From the NCBI GenBank assembly GCA_011171075.1, contig DUFD01000036.1:1-37822 (forward strand): a stretch of DNA of 37,822 nt. Direction: 5' to 3'. A program made the position numbers and the translations under genes. Of this stretch, positions 20,013-25,188 are shown piece after piece. The notes under the pieces are model-generated. The model saw only the letters and a program-made list of their open reading frames with translations, was not told the DNA's origin and searched no databases. Source of the DNA: Dehalococcoidia bacterium (GTDB lineage: Bacteria > Chloroflexota > Dehalococcoidia > Dehalococcoidales > Fen-1064). Each line of letters starts with the position of its first letter. Position 1 is the first letter of the stretch.

Positions 20013-20396
20013 TCACTCTTGTGGTTCATATTTTGACGGACATTTCAGAATGATTGTGCTCGCCTGAAATGTATTATCTGAGCGATACTCACCCTCCACG
20101 AGAACATTGGAATCCTCCTTGAGACCGCTGGGCCGGGCACCTTCATATACAACCAGCAGGTCCTCACCACCCTCGGTAATGACAAAATCCAGCTTAAGAG
20201 TATCGGCATCCCATTCTATAGAGTTATCAACCACCTTGCCAGCCACCCGGACCCGTTCCCCGTATAACTCGCTACCTCTATCCAGGAGTTCACTCACCGT
20301 CAGGTAGTAGCTGACCGCACTACCAAGGCTAGCGTATACCAGAAGACCGACTGCCACGGCAAGGATACCCCCCCCAACGAAATATCTTTTCCTCAT
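20013..20396 (-). CDS. ccmE: Heme chaperone CcmE, Cys (CxxxY) type
   Basis: The ATG at 20396 is preferred because the probable promoter (20426-20455) places the transcript start near 20419, downstream of the alternative ATG at 20423. About 127 residues: an N-terminal anchor helix, then the OB-fold with VRVAGKVVDNSIEWD, DFVITEGG, VVYEGARPSGLKEDSNVLVEG. The end is TIILKCPSKYEPQE. The heme-attachment site is therefore C-x3-Y instead of the usual H-x3-Y. Cys-type CcmE is known from archaea and Desulfovibrio, in systems that lack CcmH. Confidence 0.88.
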   Translation of the reverse strand: MRKRYFVGGGILAVAVGLLVYASLGSAVSYYLTVSELLDRGSELYGERVRVAGKVVDNSIEWDADTLKLDFVITEGGEDLLVVYEGARPSGLKEDSNVLVEGEYRSDNTFQASTIILKCPSKYEPQE

Positions 20397-20425
20397 GCCT
20401 CTGCCTGCTCCGTTACCCTGCATCC

Positions 20426-20455
20426 AGTCTACTACCACTTGGAATATAGTGTCAA
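20426..20455 (-). promoter_or_regulatory. Promoter for the ccmE operon
   Basis: On the minus strand, TTGACA (20455-20450), an 18-nt spacer and TAGACT (20431-20426) match the sigma-70 consensus in 6/6 and 4/6 positions. It gives a leader of roughly 23 nt before ATG 20396. The CstR-like site at 20500-20516 lies about 45 bp upstream. Confidence 0.5.
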
Positions 20456-20499: not shown

Positions 20500-20516
20500 A
20501 AACCCCGATAGGGTAT
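20500..20516. promoter_or_regulatory. CsoR/CstR-like operator upstream of the rhodanese gene
   Basis: AAACCCCGATAGGGTAT has the half-sites ACCC and GGGTAT separated by 5 bp, the same layout as the site at 24617-24633. It abuts a -35-like TTGACT (20516-20521), with a TAACAT -10 at 20540-20545. A repressor here would block the rhodanese operon. It lies in the divergent region shared with ccmE. Confidence 0.55.
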
Positions 20517-20701
20517 TGACTCACTTAGCCGTTGAGTGGTAACATGTTTACTTGGGTGACAGCGTATCGAATTATGCTCAGTGAACACCGTAAGGCAAAC
20601 ACTTCACAACCATTGGCATGCATTGGCAATGAATATGTATGCCTATTTTTATGCCAGTGTTAAAATAAACTGATGTACAACCGGCAAAGGAGGAATACTG
20701 G

Positions 20702-21688
20702 ATGCGTATCAAAGATTGGCTGAGAATCCTGTTGGTTTTCAGTGTGGTTCTATTGCTGTTTACCATGCCAATGCTTACCGCCTGTGGTGGCGGAGACGGG
20801 GAACAGGAGGAGGAAGAAGAAGAGGAAGAAGAAGAGGAAGCGTCAGAATTCGAAATAATCATGGAGGCCATTGAAGACTATCTGGCCGACAAGGCTGGTA
20901 ACATGAGCGCCTCCGATTTACATGTGCGGATTGCCGAAGATGACGCACCTTACATTGTCAGCATACGCAGCGCGGCTGATTATGCCGCAGGCCATATCCC
21001 GGGAGCGGTTAACATGACATTTGGCCAGTTGACCACACTCTCCGATGACGAGGAGATTCTGGTCTATTGCTACACCGGCCAGTCAGGCTCGTTTGCGGCT
21101 GCCATGCTCGGTGTCCTCGAATATGACGTCACGAACCTGCTTCACGGCATGTGTGCCTGGTCGACCGACCCGGCAGTTACCGGGACTGGCTGCTTCAATG
21201 CCAGTAGAGACCAGGGCGACTACGCTGTCGAAACTACCGCCAACACCGTTACCACAAGTTATGATTACCCCGAACTGGACAATACTACTTCAAGTGATGA
21301 GGACACAATCATTGAGGCTGCCGCAGCAACCGTTTCGCCAAGCTACATCACGGCGGCGGACCTTAACCTGAAGATTGCCGAAGAAGAGGACATGACTATA
21401 ATCAGTTGTCGCAGCGCAGCCGATTACGCCGCTGGTCATATCCCCGGTGCTATCAACATCGGCATAGACAGTCTGCTGGACAATCTTGACAAGATAGACC
21501 CCGACGCGCCGGTCTACGTGTACTGCTATACCGGACATACCGCTGGCCAGGCAGCCGCCCTGCTCCAGATGCTTGGGTACGACGCCTACAGCCTGAAGTT
21601 CGGTATGTGTTCGTGGACTTCGGACCCGGCGGTTCATATGAATAAATGCTTCAACGCCAGTACAGTCACGGGTTACGACGTAGAGTAG
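20702..21688 (+). CDS. Tandem-rhodanese lipoprotein with poly-Glu linker
   Basis: 328 residues, ATG with AAAGGAGG. The lipoprotein signal ends in LTAC with lipid-anchored Cys28. A linker contains 11 consecutive Glu (36-46). Two rhodanese domains follow, each with AADYAAGHIPGA and an active loop: CYTGQSG with Cys123 and CYTGHTA with Cys275. Each domain ends with a similar MC(A/S)W(S/T)(S/T)DPAV...CFNAS segment, so the pair is an internal duplication. Rhodaneses carry sulfane sulfur as a Cys persulfide. On the outer face of the membrane it would handle thiosulfate, polysulfide or persulfide. A CstR-like site precedes it. Confidence 0.9.
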   Translation: MRIKDWLRILLVFSVVLLLFTMPMLTACGGGDGEQEEEEEEEEEEEASEFEIIMEAIEDYLADKAGNMSASDLHVRIAEDDAPYIVSIRSAADYAAGHIPGAVNMTFGQLTTLSDDEEILVYCYTGQSGSFAAAMLGVLEYDVTNLLHGMCAWSTDPAVTGTGCFNASRDQGDYAVETTANTVTTSYDYPELDNTTSSDEDTIIEAAAATVSPSYITAADLNLKIAEEEDMTIISCRSAADYAAGHIPGAINIGIDSLLDNLDKIDPDAPVYVYCYTGHTAGQAAALLQMLGYDAYSLKFGMCSWTSDPAVHMNKCFNASTVTGYDVE

Positions 21689-21695
21689 AGAAAAT

Positions 21696-21730
21696 AGCCA
21701 CCTTGAGGAGATATACTCCTCAAGGTGGCT
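21696..21730. repeat. Perfect 15-bp stem-loop between the rhodanese and cytochrome genes
   Basis: AGCCACCTTGAGGAG and CTCCTCAAGGTGGCT flank a 5-base ATATA loop. The + strand has no T-tract after it, while the minus strand would have ATTTTC. In the rhodanese-cytochrome mRNA it would form a very stable hairpin that could partly terminate transcription or protect the upstream message from decay. Confidence 0.7.
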
Positions 21731-21808
21731 CCTTCCCGAGAAAGACGGAAGGGACTCAGGGATGTTGCCATCAGGGGTATCGATAAGGATGGAGTTTTGG
21801 AGTAGCAG

Positions 21809-23104
21809 ATGAAGCGCGTATCGTTTGCCGTCGTTGGCCTTGCCTTGCTCGCTGCGCTCGTATTATCGGGCTGCGCTGTCTCTCCCGGGCCACCGGCAGG
21901 TGAGGAGGTAAGCACCTGTGTTACCTGTCACAGCGACAAAGACCTTCTCCAGGAAACGGCTTCGGTTGTAGAGGAGGAGGTATCCGAAGCAACCTCCGGC
22001 GAAGGCTGAGGGGGTGAGTTGCCTCCGTTGGAGGAATGGGAAAAGGTCTACCTGAAGAATACCAGCTTCTTAGAAGATGCTCATGGCAAGGTTGGCTGTG
22101 TAATTTGTCACGGCGGTGACAGCAGTGCTGGAGAGAAAGACGATGCTCACGTCGGGATAATAGCCGACCCATCCGAAGAGAGCTGCGCCATCTGCCATAG
22201 TGAGATTACGCTCCTCCATGAGACCAGCCTGCACGCCACTCTCAGCGGTTTTATGAGCAAGCTCGAAGCCCGGGGCGGTGACCTCAGTGAAGGTTCAGCC
22301 CTTGATGAGGCTTTTAACAATCACTGCCAGCAGTGCCACACTACATGCGGCCAGTGTCATATCAGCCGACCGGACGAACTGGGTGGTGGACTGATATCAA
22401 GCCATGTTATTAAGGCGACCCCATCGATGCAATACAACTGCGTTGCCTGCCACGGTGCCCGGGTCGGCGACGAGTACCTGGGGAATAATACCGGCATCCC
22501 GGCCGATGTTCACTGGACACAGGAAACGATGACATGTGCCAGATGCCACGGGCAGGAACTCCACGGCACGGGAGAGATTGCCAGCGACCGGTACAGCAAC
22601 ACAGTATCAGTTAAGTGTGAGGACTGCCACGCGGATGTCCTGACGGATACGGCTGGTAACCCGCAGCATGAGCAGCACATCGGTGATCTCCAGTGTCAGG
22701 TATGTCACTCCGTAGCCTACAAGAACTGCTATGGTTGCCATGTGGCCCTCGATGAGGAAGGTTTACCCTGCCGCACCAGTGAGCCCTCGCAGTTACAGTT
22801 CGAGATAGGCTACAACCCGATACAGTCAGCGGATAGACCTTATAAATATGTTGTACTACGACATGTCCCAACGTGTGCCGGGACCTGCGACTACTACGGG
22901 TCAAATCTCATGCCCGATTTTGACACCGTATCAACTTGGAAATACGCCACACCACACAACATCCAGTTACACACACCACAGAACGAGAGCTGTAATTCCT
23001 GCCACGGCAATGAGGACCTGTTCCTTACCGAGGATGATATTCTAGCCGAGGAAAGGGAAGCAAACCGGGGGGTTATAGTAATAGACATCCCAGACCCCCA
23101 GTAA
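21809..23104 (+). CDS. Eleven-heme c-type cytochrome lipoprotein with in-frame TGA at codon 67 (candidate selenoprotein)
   Basis: The frame from ATG 21809 (GGAG upstream) runs 431 codons to TAA 23102-23104, with one in-frame TGA at 22007-22009 and no frameshift. The first 66 residues give a lipoprotein signal (LVLSGC, Cys22) and one heme site (CVTCH). The part after TGA has ten more CxxCH motifs: CVICH, CAICH, CQQCH, CGQCH, CVACH, CARCH, CEDCH, CQVCH, CYGCH, CNSCH. The downstream part has no signal peptide of its own, so it could not be exported or receive heme if translated separately. The TGA is followed by a CCTCC-GTT-GGAGG hairpin (22022-22034). I read TGA as selenocysteine (GEG-U-GGE); a disabling mutation or reinitiation at TTG 22019 are the alternatives. 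Role: electron transfer outside the cytoplasmic membrane. Confidence 0.75.
22007..22034 (+). promoter_or_regulatory. Candidate bacterial SECIS element in the cytochrome gene
   Basis: TGA (22007-22009) is followed by stem CCTCC (22022-22026), loop GTT (22027-22029) and stem GGAGG (22030-22034). The loop starts with G and lies 17 nt after the TGA, within the 16-37 nt window described for bacterial SECIS. The stem is short (5 bp), so the match is permissive. Confidence 0.5.
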
Positions 23105-23138
23105 CTGACGATAGTAGACCGAATATCGGGGAGCTGAT

Positions 23139-23984
23139 ATGGAACTAGGGCGCAGAAACTTCTTAAAGGCATCCGCCGGAGCGGCAGCAGGACTTATCCT
23201 GTTCAGAAGCACGAAATTTGGTAATGTGGCAAAGGCTGCTCCCGCTGAGTCGGACCGTGCCATGCTGGTAGACGTTACAAAATGCATTGGCTGCTGGTGG
23301 TGCTATGCTGCCTGCAAGAACTATAACAACAATCCGGAGACCTCCAGGCCTATCTCCGAAGAGCCGCCCGAGCTGGAAGCAGACTGCTGGTCCACCCTGT
23401 TCCCCCTGAAAAAGGGCGATGAATGGAGCCATAGAAAACATGCCTGCATGCACTGCACCGAGGCCAGCTGCGAAGAAGTATGCCCCACGGGAGCCATCTC
23501 ACACCAGGGAGAGATTGTAGTCATTGACCAGGAGTGGTGTATTGGCTGCGGTTATTGTGTCCAGGCCTGTCCTTTCGGCGTTCCCCATAAAGACGAACAT
23601 CTGGGAACTGCCCGTAAGTGTACCTTCTGCATCGACCGGATAAATAATGACCAGATACCCGCCTGTGCTGATGCCTGCCCAACCGGCGCAATTCAATATG
23701 GCAGGCGAGGCGACCTGCTTGAGGTAGCCGAAACGCAGGTTCAAGCCCTGAAAGATGCCGGGACTCTCACAGCTAATCTTTACGGTAAAAACGAACTAGG
23801 TGGTCTGCATGTCCTCTACGTGCTCGATGATAGCCCTTCCGTCTACGGGCTCCCTGAGGAACCGAAGTTGGCGACTGCAAAGGTCCCCTTCCAGTGGCTC
23901 AGCGGTATTCTCATGGGTGGCCTGGTTGCCGTCGTGCCGTTCTGGTTCATCTTCAAGCGGAAGAAGAAGATAGAGGCAGAGTAG
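23139..23984 (+). CDS. Tat-exported 4x[4Fe-4S] ferredoxin subunit with C-terminal membrane anchor
   Basis: 281 residues, ATG with GGGGAG. A twin-arginine signal (GRRNFLKA, RR at 5-6) precedes four Cys clusters typical of HybA/FdnH/NrfC proteins: CIGCWWCYAAC, CMHCTEASCEEVCP, CIGCGYCVQACP, and CTFC with CADACP. A single helix near 248-268 followed by KRKKK anchors the C-terminus. Such subunits wire a periplasmic catalytic or cytochrome partner to a membrane quinone site, but no NrfD/HybB-like membrane subunit or molybdopterin subunit is encoded here. The adjacent multiheme cytochrome is the likely partner. Confidence 0.9.
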   Translation: MELGRRNFLKASAGAAAGLILFRSTKFGNVAKAAPAESDRAMLVDVTKCIGCWWCYAACKNYNNNPETSRPISEEPPELEADCWSTLFPLKKGDEWSHRKHACMHCTEASCEEVCPTGAISHQGEIVVIDQEWCIGCGYCVQACPFGVPHKDEHLGTARKCTFCIDRINNDQIPACADACPTGAIQYGRRGDLLEVAETQVQALKDAGTLTANLYGKNELGGLHVLYVLDDSPSVYGLPEEPKLATAKVPFQWLSGILMGGLVAVVPFWFIFKRKKKIEAE

Positions 23985-24146
23985 CAGGCTCAATAGAAGT
24001 AGGTATTCCCTCGTTTTCAGGTGCGGCAGGTTCCAGTTAAAGGCTGCCCACGCTTTTATGCTCTGAGACTAATAATGCAAGTTGAGGGTATGTTAGTATT
24101 CCTGGTCAAACGAACATTGAATCGAAGTTTGTTATTCCTTCAGGAC

Positions 24147-24437
24147 CTATTTAGCATCGCCAACCCGCACCCTGCCCCAGATAGCTACGACACGCGCTAG
24201 CGATTCAACCGCAGATTCTTCAGAATCCCAATCTTTGCGTAAACAAATATCCATGTAGTTAGTCAGTATCAGCTGGCCTACACTTTCAACAGCTGAACGA
24301 ATTGCTGCCAGCTGAGTAACCAGACTTTCACATTCTCTATCATTAATGAGCATCTTCTGGATACCCCGTACCTGTCCCTCAATCCTCTTCAGCCGCTTTA
24401 GTATAACTTCCTTTGGCACCTTTGTTTCTGTAGCCAT
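24147..24437 (-). CDS. CsoR-family repressor, CstR-like (Cys-Tyr-Cys)
   Basis: 96 residues, all-helical, with the family opening LKRLKRIEGQVRGIQKML and the central AAIRSAVESVG. The ligand positions of copper CsoR are Cys36, His61 and Cys65. Here Cys36 and Cys65 are present but residue 61 is Tyr. Loss of the His with retention of both Cys is the pattern of CstR, which senses persulfide/polysulfide and controls rhodanese genes. The nearby tandem rhodanese and the matching 17-bp operator-like sites at 20500 and 24617 support a sulfur-sensing rather than copper-sensing role. It is transcribed away from the site at 24617. Confidence 0.85.
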   Translation of the reverse strand: MATETKVPKEVILKRLKRIEGQVRGIQKMLINDRECESLVTQLAAIRSAVESVGQLILTNYMDICLRKDWDSEESAVESLARVVAIWGRVRVGDAK

Positions 24438-24587
24438 TAATATGCCCTGCCTGTCTTTATATTGTTTATGCTAACAACTACAGTATAACTAAAAACAACG
24501 CAGATTACCATAACGAGTACCCACGATTTAGAAACTTATATACATTACGACTACCCAGCTGTAGCCAGGATAATAGTAATTTTGGGC

Positions 24588-24616
24588 TTGACAAAGAGGC
24601 AGTTGTGTGATATACA
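24588..24616 (+). promoter_or_regulatory. Strong sigma-70-type promoter of an orphan short transcription unit
   Basis: TTGACA (24588-24593), a 17-nt spacer and TATACA (24611-24616). The predicted start near 24623 lies inside the operator 24617-24633. No protein gene follows; the unit runs into a terminator at 24670-24708. Confidence 0.65.
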
Positions 24617-24633
24617 ATACCCTAGTAGGGTAT
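24617..24633. promoter_or_regulatory. CsoR/CstR-like operator at the orphan promoter
   Basis: ATACCCTAGTAGGGTAT is a near-perfect palindrome with C-tract/G-tract half-sites of the CsoR/CstR type. It sits directly downstream of the -10, the classic position for repression, and lies 180 bp from the CstR-like gene. Confidence 0.65.
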
Positions 24634-24708
24634 ATCGCCTTCGGTTCGGGTATCTCAATACCCTTTGAAATTGCCCGGCTCAATAGAGGGCCGGGTAATT
24701 TTTCTTTT
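24623..24708 (+). ncRNA. Candidate short terminated RNA or attenuator leader
   Basis: Promoter, operator and terminator define a transcript of about 85 nt with no clear ORF. It contains a GGGTAT-CTCA-ATACCC hairpin (24648-24663). The GGGTAT at 24628-24633 could pair with the same ATACCC, giving two exclusive folds. It may be a regulatory RNA, or the leader of a gene that was lost when the neighbouring element integrated and decayed. Confidence 0.35.
24670..24708 (+). terminator. Rho-independent terminator
   Basis: A GC-rich stem (ATTGCCCGGCTC / GAGGGCCGGGTAAT, one G-U pair and one bulge) with an AATA loop is followed by TTTTCTTTTT. It ends the orphan unit started at 24588. Confidence 0.75.
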
Positions 24709-25095
24709 TATTGCATATATATAGCTGATACCTTTAGCTTTGTCTCGCAGGATTTTGGCCTACTCGATAACATACTCCACCTGTTCAGGTGTAAGGCCAG
24801 GTAATATCCGTTTCTCAACATTGGGTACATCCACTCTACTGATTGGATTATCTTGAAGGTAGCCTTACTTGGTAGCCCAGCTACACAGTGCACGAATCGC
24901 CCGGTAGTAGGCATGCTTGCCGTTGGTGCATTTACGACTAGCTAAGAAGCTATTGATCCCTTGGCTAGTGAGAGGGTAACTACCTAAAAATGGCTTCAAA
25001 CAAGTCCTATAGAACCTTATAGACTGTAGTGAAATACCTTGCCTACGGGACTTGATAAACTCCTCAAACAAAAAGTCGGCGTCAACAAACGCCAA
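24690..25095 (-). pseudogene. Decayed tyrosine recombinase/integrase, N-terminal domain only
   Basis: Reading the minus strand from about 25095 (TTG; the frame is open further upstream), the protein starts with AFVDADFLFEEFIKSRRQGIS, followed by SIRFYRTCLKPFLGSYPL, a SAM-like core-binding domain of phage/XerC-type integrases. The same frame passes a TAA after ALCSWATK (about 24866), continues as GYLQDNPISRVDVPNVEKR and LPGLTPEQVEYVIE, meets a TAG, and continues as AKILRDKAKGI. The catalytic Arg-His-Tyr domain is absent. It lies 18 bp from the 3' end of tRNA-Lys, the usual position for an integrase next to its attachment site. It is a relic of an integrated element. Confidence 0.75.
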
Positions 25096-25112
25096 CTCAT
25101 TTGTCTGCTTAT

Positions 25113-25188
25113 TGGTGAGCCGCCCAGGACTCGAACCTGGAACCGGCTGATTAAGAGTCAGCTGCTCTGCCAGTTGAGCTAGCGGCCC
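25113..25188 (-). tRNA. tRNA-Lys (anticodon CUU)
   Basis: A full cloverleaf reads on the minus strand. The acceptor GGGCCGC pairs with GCGGCTC (one G-U), the anticodon arm is GCTGA-CTCTTAA-TCAGC with anticodon CTT, and the T-arm contains GGTTCGAGTCC. The 3' CCA is encoded (25115-25113). The integrase relic at its 3' side suggests that this tRNA served as an integration site. Confidence 0.95.

Follow-up and report, generated by a model that had tools for sequence, protein, structure and literature searches.

The window considered here, a 37,822-nucleotide stretch of DNA from a Dehalococcoidia bacterium (contig DUFD01000036.1, assembly GCA_011171075.1), carries a module of genes encoding a tandem rhodanese lipoprotein, an 11-haem c-type cytochrome and an iron–sulfur (Fe–S) protein, with a CsoR-family repressor gene (csoR) alongside. 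The cytochrome appears to contain selenocysteine decoded from an in-frame UGA stop codon, a reading of the UGA in which we have high confidence, and the repressor is predicted to act on two promoters within the module. The case draws on features visible in the sequences themselves, namely the conservation of the UGA, the hairpin that follows it, the selenocysteine machinery of the genome, the operators, the linkage of the genes and their fusion in some relatives.

An in-frame UGA in a multihaem cytochrome gene

As listed, the cytochrome open reading frame (ORF) starts at position 22019 and lacks a signal peptide. In the same frame, 5' of a TGA codon, positions 21809–22006 encode a lipoprotein signal and the first CxxCH motif (Table 1). 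Because gene callers break the gene at the TGA, existing annotations probably show a cytochrome with no signal peptide. The TGA is found at the identical place in all ten modules that could be read there, in the context (S/T/A)GEG-UGA-(G/A)G(E/D)LPPLE, and conservation of this kind excludes a pseudogene or an assembly error at the TGA. We likewise reject a reading of TGA as tryptophan throughout, since ccmE has a TGA stop where its domain ends and the gene for the formate dehydrogenase (FDH) alpha subunit has a TGA at the usual selenocysteine place.

A scan of GTDB genomes identified 143 relatives of the cytochrome; the best 80 enter the counts given here and the other 63 do not. A search of 400 genomes of the phylum returned 30 places: 13 were long matches, each with one TGA (one match having a TAA as well), whereas the remaining 17, short or weak, had no TGA. 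Together the 80 and the 13 make up 93 loci, some genomes being counted twice, and the UGA is at its canonical place in 90 of these.

A SECIS-type hairpin and the selenocysteine machinery

Shortly downstream of the UGA lies a hairpin (CCUCC-GUU-GGAGG) situated within codons for Pro-Pro-Leu-Glu-x. Across 89 distinct sequences, with the codon usage of the same genes as background, the codons that build the stem are close to frozen: CCT is used for 77 of 79 prolines (background 374/3016), TTG for 78 of 84 leucines (347/2490) and GAG for 88 of 89 glutamates (1318/2516). The first C–G pair has become G–C in nine sequences, with a change in the protein from PPLE(A/V/G/E) to APLEP, and is broken in one of the 89; the fifth pair is non-standard in 9/89. 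The hairpin looks like an element constrained beyond coding need, in the manner of a bacterial selenocysteine insertion sequence (SECIS). Bacterial SECIS elements obey rules of size, and what the hairpin shares with them is its short form, its place right after the UGA and a conserved G that opens the loop; it differs in lying within a conserved Pro-Pro-Leu-Glu stretch, so that its conservation is partly coding.

The genome encodes tRNA-Sec, SelA and SelB, all above cut-off, and has a second UGA gene, which encodes a formate dehydrogenase and likewise contains a TGA in frame. More widely, of 25 genomes that carry the UGA cytochrome, 22 have SelB above cut-off, compared with 7 of 16 comparison genomes.

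The repressor and its operators

The repressor matches PF02583 with 84.2 bits (cut-off 22.8) and its gene is the single match to this family in the 2.1-Mb, 93%-complete genome. An earlier note on this DNA had described Cys36 and Cys65 together with tyrosine at the position of the copper-ligand histidine, and counting of residues on the translation bears this out: the histidine is absent and Tyr61 is found in its place. The best match in the PDB is 7mq1 (60.7 bits), followed by the CsoR protein 4m1p (54.4 bits); 7mq1 is named CsoR in its record but is presumably a streptococcal CstR. With 7mq1 the repressor shares the CsoR fold family, the Cys pair, the lack of the copper histidine and a rhodanese operon alongside, whereas it differs in its longer C-terminal end (..IWGRVRVGD), in the formate dehydrogenase genes found beside its sister genes and in the tyrosine itself, which the earlier note took for a CstR trait but which is aligned with asparagine in 7mq1. 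Among 31 distinct homologues counted by eye, this position is occupied by Tyr in 21, His in 7 and Cys in 3, and the tyrosine is, as judged from this comparison, a trait of the repressor's own subfamily and no signature of CstR. A tree of csoR genes requires two changes of the module label, but support is poor at many of its nodes and we give it no weight.

Both of the 17-bp sites previously claimed, of the ATACCC-N5-GGGTAT type, were found, operator 2 being an exact match and operator 1 having one mismatch. The shorter ACCC-N5-GGGTAT pattern is located at 20502–20516 and 24619–24633 on the plus strand, the latter being a palindrome matched on both strands; its three matches in the window compare with 0.07 expected, and three were reached in none of 100 shuffles. 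The 17-bp form occurs at further places in the window, two with one mismatch and two with two, for a total of 6 against 1.46 expected. A search of the whole genome, as the earlier note had proposed, gave nine matches to the 15-bp pattern and six to a reversed control. Three of the nine are the known sites, and because the other six equal the control count and sit inside ORFs (all of at least 241 amino acids), a genome-wide regulon was rejected; the regulon seems, on these motif counts, to be local to the module. This agrees with the proposal in the note of a regulon around the tandem-rhodanese/cytochrome/Fe–S module; the operators are conserved at the rhodanese and csoR-divergent promoters.

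To follow the operator among relatives, 32 distinct regions of 400 bp preceding csoR were scored for sites matching at least 11 of 12 consensus positions. Of the 25 csoR genes of the Tyr/Cys type, 18 have such a site, compared with none of the seven of the His type; among dinucleotide shuffles this level was reached in 9 of 1280. The distance from operator to csoR start codon is mostly 50–70 bp for genes away from the module and about 120–195 bp within it. All 11 loci examined also have an operator-like site, agreeing with the consensus at 9 to 12 of 12 positions, ahead of the rhodanese gene; here the hexamers were read by eye, the shuffle control covering the csoR-upstream set. The site abuts the –35 element in the window, G002, G004 and G010 and falls between –35 and –10 in G138, G129, G035 and G140, a placement that would be expected of a repressor. 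Taken at face value, the arrangement matches CstR-like control of an adjacent sulfurtransferase gene via a GC-tract palindrome, and control of the promoters by the repressor through these operators is, in our view, probable.

Whilst the earlier note had extended this control to the divergent ccm genes, that extension is unsupported because the operator and the predicted ccmE promoter (20455–20426) do not overlap. The ccmE gene adjoins the module in six of the nine Dehalococcoidia loci L114–L122.

The CsoR-family regulator TTHA1953 of Thermus thermophilus, a regulator of sulfur oxidation, offers a parallel: PMC10318464 describes control of cytochrome c and sulfur genes, modulated by cysteine reactivity. 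The targets of TTHA1953, including a Sox system, lie far from its gene according to the same paper, whereas the targets proposed here adjoin the repressor gene.

Close homologues of csoR with the same type of operator are found in eight loci (L082, L084, L085, L086, L087, L089, L092 and L093) beside formate dehydrogenase or HdrA/VhuD-type genes, the formate dehydrogenase neighbours scoring above cut-off in L082, L084 and L093. In L088, L090 and L091 the neighbour of csoR is a CoA-disulfide-reductase-like gene, and in G034 a csoR-type gene is found on a separate contig next to formate dehydrogenase. The formate dehydrogenase or HdrA/VhuD-type neighbours suggest that the same repressor subfamily also acts on a second class of genes.

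A candidate small RNA divergent from csoR

The orphan promoter of the earlier note is present, as read by eye, in the form TTGACA-17-TATACA; it is directed away from csoR and its predicted transcript is closed by a terminator, which, like the in-frame TGA, the earlier note does not mention. A consensus promoter scan did not list it. The same layout, in which the promoter leads into an operator at the start and then into short hairpins and a terminator whose conserved stem is of the ATTGCCCGRYT type, is seen in nine loci, these being the window, G002, G008, G004, G010, G138, G129, G140 and L118, with TTGACA and a –10-like element found again in each of the other eight. In G035 the operator is more distant and the sequence downstream is different. 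The window transcript contains no ATG and is best read, from its sequence, as a repressor-controlled small RNA.

The fold of this candidate has a z-score of –5.3 in the window and –3.9 to –6.8 in six, largely due to the terminator, and both-sided changes are seen in 6 of 24 consensus pairs, five of them in the terminator stem. A model of the RNA, used as a search query, recovered eight sequences strongly, each already part of the model, and scored G142 weakly (30 bits); this result is a sign of absence elsewhere and not independent support. Matches to Rfam were far under gathering scores.

Make-up of the module and fold of the cytochrome

The two catalytic cysteines of the rhodanese are almost invariant among 50 aligned proteins (Cys123 in 50/50, Cys275 in 49/50). 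A rhodanese gene is found near the cytochrome gene in 63 of 80 loci, contig ends often cutting the flanks, and in L120, L124, L125, L128 and L132 the two form one ORF across the UGA, running past the contig end in L124, L125 and L128. The contig of L125 is labelled Candidatus Thorarchaeota but may be a mis-binned bacterial contig. The Fe–S protein is of the FDH-beta/HmcB/HybA kind, its match to TIGR01582 (179 bits) falling under the cut-off of 334.7. In eight of the nine loci L114–L122 its gene is followed by one for an FdnI-type cytochrome b, the family having been assigned for two.

No NCBIfam model matches the cytochrome above cut-off, and neither our general literature searches nor those on the repressor found a paper on this UGA cytochrome family. 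A sequence profile gave weak matches to PDB chains, the best at 31 bits. The protein was modelled with a predicted local distance difference test score of 87.4, and a second structural aligner, used in addition to Foldseek, placed the octahaem cytochrome 1sp3 first (Z 9.4, root-mean-square deviation 4.5, 272 residues aligned, model residues 89–431), with hydroxylamine oxidoreductases at Z 5.0 and below.

The octahaem family to which such proteins belong acts on tetrathionate, nitrite or hydroxylamine, and octahaem tetrathionate reductase itself performs sulfur chemistry. As modelled, the core of the cytochrome is closest to octahaem tetrathionate reductase (1sp3; TIGR04315), the similarity being one of modelled fold; the reductase has eight haems, whereas the protein described here has 11 CxxCH motifs, with an extra N-terminal haem and the selenocysteine segment. 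Cysteine haem ligands are found in SoxA and TsdA, and by analogy one possibility is that the selenol could serve as a haem ligand.

The review PMC13188914 names ExtKL and an octahaem protein as selenocysteine-containing c-type cytochromes, two kinds in all, and gives a selenocysteine form of TIGR04315 as annotated in GenBank. TIGR04315 is not among the matches of the cytochrome up to an E-value of 0.05, and the ExtKL model NF040886 has no match in the genome and none listed for the cytochrome. By sequence, then, the cytochrome is neither of these, and it would represent a further kind of selenocysteine c-type cytochrome, tightly tied to rhodanese and with 143 relatives in a single scan.

Proposed mechanism and its alternatives

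On balance we lean slightly towards a composite mechanism which, in its broad form, brings together the repressor, the UGA cytochrome, the rhodanese and sulfur–sulfur redox chemistry. A CsoR-family thiol repressor, with Cys36 and Cys65 and no copper histidine, would hold down two promoters, one for the tandem-rhodanese/selenocysteine-cytochrome/Fe–S operon and the other for the ~90-nt RNA divergent from csoR. Reaction of the repressor thiols, most likely with sulfane sulfur, would release the protein from DNA, and the derepressed operon would then yield an outer-face module. Within this, the rhodanese lipoprotein would carry sulfur as cysteine persulfide, the 11-haem cytochrome would make or break sulfur–sulfur bonds with the selenol assisting, and the Fe–S protein, with cytochrome b in most relatives, would connect the cytochrome to the quinone pool. 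The sulfane-sulfur inducer, the carriage of persulfide, the reaction and its direction, and the coupling to quinone are what we infer.

Sulfane sulfur is the best guess for the inducer because the repressor has the Cys pair, lacks the histidine, lies by a rhodanese operon and has 7mq1 as its closest relative of solved structure, but we regard the matter as evenly poised. At the outer face, the module would probably work on sulfur–sulfur bonds, sulfur being carried by the rhodanese; that the cytochrome itself performs this chemistry is a shade less secure than the identity of the inducer. More tentative again is the proposal of an undescribed class of respiratory enzyme, in which rhodanese persulfide would be passed to a selenocysteine lying between haem 1 and an octahaem-tetrathionate-reductase-like core, under a Tyr-type persulfide sensor and accompanied by a small RNA in the Dehalococcoidia. 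If true, a single extracytoplasmic unit, formed of one chain in some genomes, would perform both sulfur and electron transfer, and such a class of enzyme would be spread over Chloroflexota and several other phyla. The cytochrome makes the role of a selenol beside haems in sulfur chemistry testable, and the repressor, the two operators and the small RNA could be tested without growing the host.

A number of observations weigh against this picture. At the UGA place the cytochromes of L142, L149 and L185 have Trp, Leu and Ile-Arg, respectively. The Trp codon, seen in the one locus L142, counts against our rejection of a general tryptophan reading of TGA. In the genomes of L142 and L185 SelB nonetheless scores above cut-off. 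No form with Cys at this place was found in any of the 93 loci (the best 80 of 143 relatives plus 13). The selenol is perhaps dispensable, therefore, given that these variants occur and that none has Cys; Cys homologues are the usual support for a selenoprotein, although not a requirement. SelB above cut-off is missing from UGA-cytochrome genomes in G008 and in those of L118 and L151, and SelD was not found above cut-off in the 93%-complete genome, the best match (80.9 bits against 125) being an ORF that reads like ThiL. A Foldseek search with the cytochrome model against the PDB gave 0 of 146 matches at E 0.001, and the alignment to 1sp3 starts at residue 89, past the selenocysteine. The cytochrome b gene is absent from the window and from G002, a relative in the same genus. 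Sister repressors beside formate dehydrogenase do not point to sulfane sulfur, and with neighbours as varied as theirs the inducer is not readable from the rhodanese alone.

Of the alternatives, the one that fares best, though we consider it unlikely, is that of a selenium-oxyanion module akin to the Geobacter ext cluster, dedicated to selenite or tellurite reduction, with the repressor sensing selenium or thiol stress. PMC5877670 describes in that cluster a rhodanese (ExtH), the selenocysteine multihaem cytochrome ExtKL and a cytochrome b, and reports that loss of ExtI reduces selenite and tellurite reduction; weak NCBIfam matches to ExtH (33 bits, cut-off 200) and ExtM (25–28 bits, cut-off 800) are seen here also. 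ExtKL, however, has five haems, and the ext cluster contains a Rieske protein as well as a porin and is described as Fur-controlled in Geobacter (PMC5877670), whilst the genome of the window lacks an ExtKL match and no porin gene was seen in the module. Selenium is also not favoured as inducer because the repressor subfamily is found in genomes without SelB above cut-off (G064, G061, G128, G079, G095 and G020), in all six of which the csoR gene sits away from the module.

Slightly less likely still is that the repressor senses formaldehyde or some other formate-linked electrophile in the manner of FrmR, the module serving in one-carbon redox stress. Sister repressors with the same operator do lie beside formate dehydrogenase in the three loci above cut-off and in others, and both the Fe–S protein and cytochrome b resemble their counterparts in formate dehydrogenases. 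The operon, however, encodes a tandem rhodanese and no one-carbon enzyme, FrmR models score far too low against the repressor (40.5, cut-off 133), and the CoA-disulfide-reductase-like neighbours in L088, L090 and L091 point instead to thiol and persulfide chemistry.

Least probable by far is that two proteins are made with no selenocysteine, a one-haem lipoprotein ending at the TGA and a ten-haem cytochrome restarting after it, for although the first ORF would make a plausible small haem lipoprotein and GTG or TTG is found at codon 4 (62/89) and codon 7 (81/89) past the TGA with a G-rich stretch ahead, the codon-7 TTG is itself in the hairpin stem, the first in-frame ATG is scattered (none within 119 codons in 10/91), no separate export signal is encoded after the TGA, the same TGA and frozen hairpin are found across many genera, rhodanese and cytochrome share one frame across the TGA in five loci, and the genome has selenocysteine machinery.

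Table 1 Features of the module in the window
Feature	Position	Strand	Description
ccmE	20013..20438	-	First gene of divergent ccm cluster; PF03100, 94.6 bits (cut-off 24.6)
Predicted operator 1	20500..20516	+	AAACCC-CGATA-GGGTAT; abuts –35 of rhodanese promoter
Predicted rhodanese promoter	20516..20545	+	TTGACT-18-TAACAT, TG before –10; 9/12 consensus matches, from consensus only
Candidate leader hairpin	20611..20660	+	5' untranslated region of rhodanese mRNA; 8 consensus pairs, 10 sequences
Tandem rhodanese lipoprotein	20702..21688	+	PF00581 in two stretches; catalytic Cys123, Cys275
Putative selenocysteine 11-haem cytochrome	21809..23104	+	Lipoprotein signal and haem 1 before UGA, 10 haems after
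In-frame TGA	22007..22009	+	Codon 67; read as selenocysteine
SECIS-type hairpin	22022..22034	+	CCUCC-GUU-GGAGG, 12 nt past UGA; codon freezing and compensatory pair
Fe–S protein	23139..23984	+	Predicted export by twin-arginine translocation (TAT); FDH-beta/HmcB/HybA kind; PF13247
CsoR-family repressor gene	24147..24437	-	PF02583; Cys36, Tyr61, Cys65
Putative csoR-divergent promoter	24588..24616	+	TTGACA (24588–24593), 17 bp, TATACA (24611–24616); read by eye
Predicted operator 2	24617..24633	+	ATACCC-TAGTA-GGGTAT; covers expected transcription start; kept in nine loci
Candidate repressor-controlled small RNA	24617..24712	+	~90 nt; own terminator 24667–24702; alignment A4, nine loci

Other features of the locus

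The 150-nt leader of the rhodanese mRNA (20552–20701) contains a hairpin whose outer helix is kept in 10 relatives, with both-sided changes in three pairs and single-sequence z-scores of –0.8 to –3.4, and the leader may be a cis-regulatory RNA. A search of Rfam with the leader gave no match. Alignment A3 was rejected as the basis of a model, as rhodanese rows had fallen against cytochrome columns. Between the rhodanese and cytochrome genes lies a 15-bp inverted repeat (21696–21730), the T-rich side of which serves the minus strand only. Beyond csoR, a 76-amino acid ORF within 24865–25188 adjoins a tRNA-Lys gene (25113–25188); it has no Pfam match but has the look of a tyrosine recombinase N terminus, and may be what is left of an element once integrated next to the module.

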